Below are positions 3,550 to 55,032 of a stretch of 64,000 nt of DNA, piece after piece. The notes under the pieces were generated by a model. It saw nothing but the letters and a program-made list of their open reading frames with translations, made no database searches and was not told where the DNA came from. The stretch comes from Qipengyuania pacifica (lineage in GTDB: Bacteria > Pseudomonadota > Alphaproteobacteria > Sphingomonadales > Sphingomonadaceae), in the NCBI RefSeq assembly GCF_019857205.1, contig NZ_JAHWXO010000010.1, positions 1-64,000 on the forward strand, in the 5' to 3' direction. The position numbers and the translations under genes are program-made. Positions within the stretch are counted from its first letter, which is position 1, and each line of letters begins with the position of its first letter.

Positions 3550-3564
3550 GTTCTATATATGTTC
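3550..3564 (+). promoter_or_regulatory. Candidate LexA (SOS) box, GTTC-N7-GTTC
   Basis: GTTCTATATATGTTC matches the alphaproteobacterial LexA consensus exactly. It lies in the 126-bp divergent gap between the primase-like gene (minus) and the transglycosylase gene (plus), 31 bp before the latter's ATG. Eight fixed bases match by chance about twice in 64 kb counting both strands, but a match inside a short divergent promoter of a mobile element is much less expected. LexA control is an inference. Confidence 0.6.
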
Positions 3565-52879: not shown

Positions 52880-53632
52880 TTAGGCCGCCGCAGTTTCTTC
52901 CGGCGGATTTTCCATCGCACCAACGTCGGCACCCGAATCCTGGATGCCTTCGCCCTTGCCGCTCTTGGCTGCATTGGCGACTGCATCGCAGTACAGACGG
53001 ATGGCGCGTGCAGCATCGTCGTTGCCCGGGATCGGGAAAGCGATGCCTTCAGGATCGACATTAGTGTCGAGCACGGCGACGACGGGGATGCCGAGAACAT
53101 TGGCTTCCTTGATCGCCAGATCTTCCATGTTCGCGTCGATCACGAACATAACGTCCGGAATGCCGCCCATGTTACGAATGCCGCCAAGCGACATTTCGAG
53201 CTTGTCCCGCTTGCGGGTAAGGTCGAGCACTTCCTTCTTGGTCAGACCGGCCGTGTCACCCGAAAGGCGCTCATCGAGCGTCTTGAGGTACTTGATGCGT
53301 TCGCTGATGGTCTTCCAGTTGGTCAGCATGCCGCCGAGCCAGCGGTGGTTGACGAAGTGCTGACCCGAAGCAAGCGCGGCATCGCGGATCGCGTCCTGCG
53401 CCTGGCGCTTGGTACCGACGAACAGCACCTTGCCACCCGAACGCGCGGTCTGCTGGATGAAGTCGAGCGCGCGCGCAAACAGCGGTACGGTCTGCGACAG
53501 ATCGATGATATGGATGCCGTTGCGCGCGCCGAAGATATACGGCTTCATGCGCGGGTTCCAACGGTGGGTCTGGTGGCCGAAGTGCGTTCCGGCTTCGATC
53601 AATTGCTGCATCGTGACGGTAGGAGCCGCCAT
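52880..53632 (-). CDS. rpsB: 30S ribosomal protein S2
   Basis: This protein of about 250 residues is typical S2: [38 protein letters not shown] and [12 protein letters not shown], with an acidic/Ala C-terminal tail. The ATG at 53632 has AAGGA 8 bases upstream; the ATG at 53638 would be too close to it. It forms the usual rpsB-tsf pair. Confidence 0.98.
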
Positions 53633-53984
53633 AATCATATTCCTTTCCGGTTATGCCTCTGGAAAGCTGGAACCCGAATGCGGTCATGTCCCGCGCAGGG
53701 CACCGGTATGGTGTGCCTTCCATGTGGATTTGCCCGACCGGAACAGTCATTGAAACGACCGATTCCGATGCGAACCGGGCGCCCTTAGCGCCGTTCTGGC
53801 AGGAAATCCAGCTTCGATTCACCGCTAAAAAAGGGAATCCGGACGCGAAAAGCAGTTGACAGGGAAGAACAAAAAGAGAACATGGCCCACATCACCGGAA
53901 CCGACGGTGGTCAGTACGGGTTTTCCACCTGATTTCCCCAGTCTGTCAACATAGTTGGCGGCAGCCGGGGTTGGAGATATCGCA
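53633..53984. other. 352-bp divergent gap between rpsB and the small membrane-protein gene
   Basis: It holds the rpsB leader and, at 53856-53884, the TTGACA/LexA-box promoter reading right. A short GGCGC/GCGCC hairpin lies near 53778-53792. No clear rpsB promoter is seen on the minus strand and no convincing ORF is present. Confidence 0.6.
53856..53884 (+). promoter_or_regulatory. Candidate SOS promoter: TTGACA followed by LexA box GAAC-N7-GAAC
   Basis: A perfect -35 TTGACA (53856-53861) is followed 5 bases later by GAACAAAAAGAGAAC (53867-53881), an exact alphaproteobacterial LexA box. The box covers the spacer and the expected -10, so LexA would block RNA polymerase. The next gene on this strand starts 103 bp downstream at 53985. 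The AT-rich spacer fits known alphaproteobacterial boxes. Confidence 0.7.
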
Positions 53985-54224
53985 ATGTTCGCACTGTTTC
54001 TTGTCATCCTTCTCGCCGCTACCGCTCTGGCGGCAGTGGGAGTTCTCGCCGATAGCGGTCTACGGTGGTGGTCCGCTTTCGGCAGACTACGCCGCGATTT
54101 GAAGAACGGAAACGTCCCCGCTCTGCCGTCACTTCGTCCGGTCATCGCGGGTGGAGGTCATACGGCGTTCGATAGATCGGCCGCGGGCCGCGCCGCGAAG
54201 GGCACGATCAACTGCGCCGCTTGA
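53985..54224 (+). CDS. Small single-pass membrane protein behind a LexA box, possible SOS-induced protein
   Basis: This 79-residue protein has one hydrophobic segment (about residues 2-22, FALFLVILLAATALAAVGVL) followed by a basic, Gly/Ala/Arg-rich tail (SGLRWWSAFGRLRRDLKNG, then HTAFDRSAAGRAAKG). GGAG lies 9 bases before the ATG. I do not recognise a family. The promoter context suggests induction by DNA damage. Small inner-membrane proteins made in the SOS response elsewhere (SidA in Caulobacter) stop cell division; the same role here is only a hypothesis. Its 3' end overlaps the convergent pssA gene by 17 bases. Confidence 0.6.
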   Translation: MFALFLVILLAATALAAVGVLADSGLRWWSAFGRLRRDLKNGNVPALPSLRPVIAGGGHTAFDRSAAGRAAKGTINCAA

Positions 54225-55032
54225 TCCGGGAATAGCGGAGCAGAGTATAAGGCAGCAGCAAGAGATAGCCGACGCAAATCGCACTCAAGGTCCACCATGG
54301 TTCGACCAGCAGAGCGGCAAACAGAAGTCCCGCCAAGGCGATTATCTCGAGTCTGATCCCGCGCCGTGGCCGCAGTGACGTCCAACCGGGTGTGGCCATG
54401 CTCGAGATCATGAGCAATGCTACCGCGACCAGCCAAACGCCGACCAGAAGCGGATGACGAAGCTCTTCAAGCCCCGTAGCCATCCAGAGATAGAATGGCG
54501 CAAAGGCCAGCCCCGCCCCCAGAGGCGCAGGAACGCCAGTCAGGAAACCGAGGGATTTATGCGGCTGCTCCTTCACATCGATCTGAGCATTGAATCGTGC
54601 AAGCCTGAGAGCACAACATATCGCAAAAGCCAGCGCTGCGAACCAGCCGAGTCTCGGTTCGGCTGACAGCGACCACAGGTAAATGATGATCGCGGGCGCA
54701 GTGCCGAAGCTCAACGAATCAGCCAGGCTGTCCAGTTCTGCTCCGAACCGCGATTGCGCCTTGAGGGCACGGGCTATTCGTCCGTCGATCCCGTCAAGCA
54801 GGCCCGCCAGAATGATCGCGACAACCGCCGCACCCCAATTTTCGCCGATGGCAAATCGGATGCCGGTAAGGCCGGAACACAGAGCAGCAGCCGTGATCGC
54901 ATTGGGCACCATCGCCTTGAGCGTCAATGCACGCGAGCGGCCCATTACCGGACGTTCATCTTCCGCCGCCTTCGGGCCCAAACGTGCGCGCTCTTCCGGC
55001 TCTGCGGGGGCCTGCGGCGGGAGTAAGCTCAC
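54208..55032 (-). CDS. pssA: CDP-diacylglycerol--serine O-phosphatidyltransferase
   Basis: This 274-residue membrane protein has the CDP-alcohol phosphotransferase signature [20 protein letters not shown] and [11 protein letters not shown]. It makes phosphatidylserine from CDP-diacylglycerol. It has a GTG start overlapping the psd stop (GTGA). The two genes together make phosphatidylethanolamine. Confidence 0.96.

Follow-up and report, generated by a model that had tools for sequence, protein, structure and literature searches.

The window, by which we mean the whole 64,000-nt stretch of Qipengyuania pacifica DNA analysed here, carries between rpsB and pssA a small open reading frame (ORF) preceded by promoter-like elements and a LexA box. 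The features of this locus are as follows:

52880..53638, minus strand: rpsB, the divergent neighbour (TIGR01011, E 2.4e-95)
53856..53861, plus strand: TTGACA -35 element, read from the sequence
53867..53881, plus strand: LexA box GAACAAAAAGAGAAC, an exact GAACN7GAAC
53879..53884, plus strand: possible -10 element AACATG, found by inspection 17 nt from TTGACA, a weak match to the consensus
53921..53951, plus strand: putative leader array of three DnaA-box-like 9-mers, TTTTCCACC, ATTTCCCCA and CTGTCAACA, at 11-nt steps
53973..53976, plus strand: GGAG, a Shine-Dalgarno-like motif read from the sequence
53985..54224, plus strand: ORF of 79 aa, with ATG at 53985 and a stop codon ending at 54224
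54208..55032, minus strand: pssA, the convergent neighbour (TIGR00473, E 4.1e-28, 98.4 bits, which does not reach the cut-off of 107)

The TTGACA, the exact GAAC-N7-GAAC box, the 79-codon ORF and the rpsB and pssA flanks all lie where a preliminary description of this DNA had placed them. Five nucleotides separate TTGACA from GAACAAAAAGAGAAC, and a consensus scan of the promoter returned no consensus -10 element. The box had been expected to hide the -10, and at 17-nt spacing the putative AACATG (AACATT in many relatives) does overlap the second half-site. An ATG at 53882, directly 3' of the box, opens 16 codons and is probably accidental, because the compared relatives mostly have ATT at this position. 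The idea that the next start codon opens the ORF was therefore right about the start itself, since ATG 53985 aligns with the start codon of relatives in the genus alignment, but not about the order, since ATG 53882 comes first. The leader between the box and ATG 53985 is about 100 nt long. An in-frame TTG at 53955 would give an alternative product of 89 aa, and the Shine-Dalgarno-like motif is present in 49 of 59 genus orthologues. At its 3' end the ORF overlaps the convergent pssA by 17 nt, with its stop codon inside that gene.

AlphaFold predicted a single helix covering residues 2-40 (pLDDT 87-98 for residues 1-40, taken as a block) and a low-confidence remainder, with pLDDT below 50 for residues 56-76. 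This agrees with the one-helix membrane protein with a basic tail that had been proposed from the sequence, the tail being predicted as disordered. Lysine and arginine occur at positions 27, 34, 36, 37, 40, 51, 64, 69 and 72 and nowhere before 27, and for this reason the positive-inside rule would place the tail in the cytoplasm. Among 41 aligned genus sequences M1, D23 and R27 never vary, and conservation is 90% or higher at L21, A22, L26, W29, S30, A31, L35, R64, A78 and A79; not every one of the more distant family members has all of these residues. Third codon positions differ most in the core (0.45 versus 0.34 and 0.25), and the three positions are nearly equal in the tail (0.55, 0.57 and 0.66). 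The median dN/dS was 0.35 (range 0.05-1.34) over 241 pairs chosen for 5-25% divergence. These substitution patterns indicate an ORF that is coding and under moderate constraint, yet fast evolving.

The window protein matched no model in Pfam, NCBIfam (E up to 10), PHROGs or PADLOC, and no relative was found in the PDB at E 0.1. Scattered family matches by one to three of the 41 members, for example to DUF2537 (E 0.0012), the phage holin TIGR01598 (E 0.00085) and two PHROGs at about 0.005, were put down to accidental resemblance between hydrophobic helices.

Of 60 genomes from the same genus, counting that of the window, 59 encode the protein, and the sole miss is a genome that is 75% complete. 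The 33 named carriers are mostly Qipengyuania and Erythrobacter, and protein length in the genus ranges from 75 to 84 aa. After loci on the minus strand had been reversed, an exact GAACN7GAAC was found upstream of all 59 orthologues, with the first box 105-143 nt before the ORF start in every case. In the upstream alignment of the 59 orthologues the half-sites, the A after each of them and the TTGAC columns reach a rounded 2.0 bits; few other columns do so, and a GGAAC further downstream comes close. Lack of conservation of the box or the ORF in close relatives had been named in advance as evidence against the proposal; the comparison was run, and both are conserved. More than one box precedes the small ORF in two genomes (G050 and G002). 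The gene pssA adjoins the ORF in 59 of 59 loci. The distance from the start of rpsB to the ORF is about 0.3-0.4 kb in 58 of the 59 and about 1.3 kb in G030 (L193), where rpsB and the box are set apart by some 0.9 kb of additional DNA and both box and ORF are kept. Second weak matches in two genomes (G025:C2 and G031:C6) were dropped, as they came without rpsB, pssA or an ORF match.

Taken alone, an exact box is not rare. The window contains four GAACN7GAAC against 2.1 expected, which agrees with the chance level of about two per 64 kb allowed for in the preliminary description, and 18 of 100 shuffles reach four. The whole genome contains 140, against 69 for the reversed pattern, and the 15-mer GAACAAAAAGAGAAC occurs in it once. 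The box before the 79-aa ORF exceeds chance because it is conserved, in 59 of 59 genus orthologues and in 72 of 98 family genomes (see below).

The same genome carries GAACN7GAAC upstream of lexA (L097), recA (L098, in the opposite orientation) and imuA (L099), where the box lies immediately in front of the imuA-imuB-dnaE2 genes. These three genes were identified from their order and from partial matches below cut-offs (ImuA 31 bits); imuB exceeds the Pfam IMS cut-off. The LexA DNA-binding domain has one match in the genome, and the lexA gene scores above the TIGR00498 cut-off (E 2.4e-49). In L097 lexA occupies positions 963-1676 with the box directly upstream, and the Ala-Gly, Ser and Lys of a self-cleaving LexA can be seen by eye. 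In Sphingopyxis granuli, lexA, recA and imuAB-dnaE2 were induced in anaerobic growth, and the passages considered make no mention of the 79-aa gene (PMC6472365). Elsewhere in the window, an exact GAACATATATAGAAC lies at 3550-3564 (minus strand), and the gene that follows it after about 90 nt resembles a primase by eye; an identical 15-mer is found at G000:C12:366367, and this site possibly reflects a mobile element under similar control.

At the family level, a profile built from one genus matched 71 of 298 genomes, which is an undercount; only 18 candidates per genome were scored, and the profile was for that reason replaced by a survey anchored on rpsB. This survey comprised 99 genomes from 90 genera, including that of the window (30 as loci and 69 as regions, all regions placed by coordinates), and n became 98 when L277, at 260 nt too short, was dropped. 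Reading away from rpsB, GAACN7GAAC turned up in the first 520 nt in 72 of the 98, compared with 1 of 98 for a box in reverse orientation, 4 of 98 for the reversed control pattern, and a mean of 0.88 boxes (maximum 3) in 100 first-order Markov resamplings of the regions; as the genomes share ancestry, the family counts are not independent events. A box together with an ATG-initiated ORF of 45-140 codons bearing an N-terminal hydrophobic stretch was present in 69 of 98. TTGAC stands exactly 11 nt before the box in 40 of the 72 and elsewhere nearby in another 22; the other 10 lack it in the vicinity. Of the 25 loci L104-L128, 24 (L105-L128) showed the ORF with an upstream box; L104, an asymmetric piece that was not anchored, was not counted. 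More than one box precedes the small ORF in L205 (210, 277 and 295 nt from rpsB) and L215 (187, 220 and 245 nt), perhaps for tighter or graded LexA control.

No box was found within 520 nt in 26 of 98 genomes. In L201 an exact box lies slightly further out and in L193 about 0.65 kb further; four others (L227, L233, L239 and L264) have a one-mismatch box behind TTGA. The remaining 20 of the 26 have neither a one-mismatch box behind TTGA in those 520 nt nor an exact box counted as the same unit; L240 has an exact box at 806, and in G145 (L248) a box-carrying unit lies 4.6 kb away. The misses are not accounted for by loss of LexA, since 25 of the 26 box-less genomes gave a LexA match; its domain was present in 45 of 46 family genomes checked.

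Across the order, the pattern TTGACN6GAACN7GAACA was found in 193 of 396 genomes searched, and its reversed control in 4 among the matches listed. Thirty pattern loci were fetched, of which 13 lie before uvrA, 13 before a small ORF beside rpsB, three (L172-L174) before a small one-helix ORF beside adk, and one (L166) before neither; identity was checked for one UvrA and one Adk fragment, and the remaining loci were named by eye. In other families of the order the pattern occurred in five genomes, four times before uvrA and once as L166. By anatomy and promoter, rather than by sequence similarity, the adk-linked ORFs are probably equivalents of the 79-aa gene. In all three of these loci the unit is followed by an inverted repeat and a T run that look terminator-like by eye.

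These comparisons indicate that the promoter with its box and the small ORF belong together as a unit. A LexA-controlled promoter before a real ORF, as had been proposed, is strongly supported by the conservation of both in genus and family. The 79-aa gene is almost certainly under LexA control, and it very probably represents a new family of small proteins regulated in this way.

Besides the box, the leaders share short words. Allowing one mismatch, 58 of 127 leaders contain CTGTCAACAG (50 of them exactly; 0.4 on average in resampled sequence) and 55 of 127 contain TTATCCACA (17 exactly; resampled 1.1); the excess over resampled sequence is inflated by the common descent of the leaders, 59 of the 127 being from one genus. 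At least 18 of 27 positions agree with three anchor words in 88 of 127 leaders, with 11/11 spacing in 61 of the 88; the anchor words were chosen from the same leaders, the score slightly favoured this spacing, and the array counts stand without a resampled control. Closely spaced DnaA boxes are known from the arrays of oriC, which the leader array resembles, and the leader 9-mers could serve DnaA or another factor. In the genome exact TTATCCACA occurs 12 times, against 7 for the reversed word, scattered and with no visible cluster. As a consequence of this scatter, and of the lack of an exact site in the window copy, the DnaA reading is kept as a lead. Its fullest form would be a family-wide checkpoint with two signals, in which the promoter responds to LexA and a leader array of TTTTCCACA, TTATCCACA and CTGTCAACA, helically phased at 11-nt steps, responds to DnaA, division is stopped from the cytoplasmic face, and the protein is removed through its Ala-Ala end. 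We regard this as improbable; if true, a single promoter would tie cell division to DNA damage and to the initiation of replication. The consensus folding energy of 86 leaders was -7.4, versus -1.1 (sd 1.1) for shuffled columns; a conserved leader RNA structure is not claimed, as the helices contain many broken pairs and little compensatory change.

The protein ends in Ala-Ala in 56 of 59 genus members and 63 of 69 family members, compared with 1 of 59 among the longest non-overlapping ORFs of the window. The overlap with pssA is a serious confounder and may explain part of this conservation. It measures 17-56 nt in all 59 genus members, and in every genus case the Ala-Ala end faces, on the opposite strand, the conserved pssA codons of a basic C-terminal motif. 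Of the 69 survey genomes that carry both box and ORF, 67 had pssA on that piece by tblastn, and in 65 of these 67 it overlaps the ORF. Among the eight cases found without overlap (a count that leaves aside overlap in L104 and L106-L128), seven end in Ala-Ala and L273 is the exception. The seven represent about four lineages: L105, L243 and L246 come from one genus, their fetched pieces showing no pssA match and, by eye, a psd-like neighbour; L172-L174, from another, have adk as neighbour; and L220 has an overlap of 0. A degron reading of the Ala-Ala end, at first held to be strong, is kept as a possibility because of these seven of eight cases. Caulobacter CtrA was stabilised when its C-terminal alanines were changed, according to the excerpts of PMC4433202, and by analogy the Ala-Ala end here may act as a protease signal.

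Several small proteins of known SOS and division systems invite comparison. SidA of Caulobacter crescentus, with 29 aa, is likewise a LexA-controlled small membrane protein of an alphaproteobacterium; the gene described here differs in encoding, within the genus, 75-84 aa with a long basic tail. According to PMC12700426, sidA is an early SOS gene on which the filamentation of a lexA deletion depends. Caulobacter DidA (71 aa, one predicted helix) is controlled by DriD and acts on FtsN. It resembles our protein in size and in its one predicted helix, whereas didA is SOS-independent, and short domains of DidA protrude to either side of the membrane, with the periplasmic part of FtsN needed for its interaction in two-hybrid assays (PMC4211646), in contrast to the predicted cytoplasmic tail here. 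The suggestion that the gene has the right size, topology and promoter for a SidA- or DidA-like protein stands for a small one-helix protein behind a LexA-type promoter, but does not extend to the orientation of SidA or DidA in the membrane.

SulA is a soluble FtsZ inhibitor; it would share the role of SOS division inhibitor with the 79-aa protein if the division-block guess is right. The latter has no PF03846 match and differs in this respect. As anticipated, SulA was not found in the genus: PF03846 matched 0 of 60 genomes and, among 14 controls, E. coli alone was positive. YneA and SosA of Firmicutes have a C-terminal part that faces outward. On the same condition they would be similar as SOS-induced division inhibitors (PMC6851548 and PMC13396833). 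TisB and DinQ of Escherichia coli are SOS-induced small membrane peptides that share the probable regulation and the one-helix anatomy of the 79-aa protein (PMC8145889, PMC2826370, PMC3567139). Both are shorter than it and are paired with antisense RNAs. For the gene here, Rfam gave no match at E 1 in 53500-54300.

Our best single guess for the function is a SidA-like block of cell division, which we believe about as much as we doubt it and which is in keeping with a small one-helix protein regulated in this way. With LexA sitting between the -35 and -10 elements, the gene would stay off; after DNA damage, RecA filaments would promote self-cleavage of LexA, and a short-lived inner-membrane protein would be made. 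Its N-terminal helix would lie in the membrane, with the disordered and basic tail on the cytoplasmic side. Through its conserved LAD(S)xxR stretch the helix would bind a membrane component of the divisome, and division would be delayed until the DNA is repaired. On recovery, a cytoplasmic protease such as ClpXP would recognise the Ala-Ala end and clear the protein. Sequence comparison supports the operator, the -35 element, the ORF, the single helix and the conserved Ala-Ala end; LexA binding, topology, recognition by a protease, and the division block with its target are our inference. The chances that this mechanism is correct as a whole appear evenly balanced.

Any small SOS membrane protein would show the same features as the 79-aa one, and the main rivals are a TisB-like peptide and a role in the envelope or lipids. 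An SOS regulator of envelope or phospholipid metabolism, with PssA or Psd as possible targets, or a protein that modulates some other membrane enzyme independently of division, would fit the adjoining pssA and the overlapping 3' ends in 59 of 59 genus members and in most survey genomes. However, the adk-linked units (L172-L174) and those without pssA on the fetched piece (L105, L243, L246) keep box and ORF, and we consider this role rather unlikely. Also unlikely, and slightly more so, is a peptide that, like TisB or DinQ, lowers the membrane potential and brings about slower growth or tolerance, its translation being limited by a leader or antisense RNA. The conserved leader of about 100 nt, with the folding energy given above, is in keeping with it, as are the shared regulation and anatomy. 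On the other hand, a depolarising helix would not obviously need a disordered tail of about 40 residues, the invariant D23 and R27 or the Ala-Ala end, and the Rfam search, which covers known families, gave no antisense or leader RNA match.

The overlap of 17-56 nt could also point to antisense control of pssA by a convergent SOS transcript as the main function, but units without the overlap retain both ORF and box, which makes this very improbable. Hardly credible at all is the view that the box serves no gene, or rpsB, and that the ORF is a chance reading frame: the ORF is short, its tail is poorly conserved and exact boxes are expected about twice per 64 kb, yet forward boxes outnumber reverse ones by 72 to 1 among the 98 genomes, the combination of box and small ORF also occurs away from rpsB, third codon positions vary most in the core, and the start codon is shared. 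Considering the division block again, the small membrane protein described here, behind what looks like a DNA-damage switch, is a strong candidate for a division brake in sphingomonads.

No description of the gene or of a sphingomonad SOS division inhibitor was found in the literature searched, which included excerpts of PMC6472365, PMC4211646, PMC12700426, PMC13384398 and PMC4433202; regulon databases and most subscription papers lay outside its scope, and an earlier prediction of this LexA site may exist. Nor did this literature describe by what means sphingomonads hold back division once their DNA is damaged. The gene described here is a well-defined candidate that is immediately testable. 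Over about 90 genera, a LexA-type operator has been kept in 72 of 98 family genomes while the protein behind it changed fast. If the proposed function is true, lineage-specific one-helix SOS proteins would be better found by their operator and neighbourhood than by their sequence.
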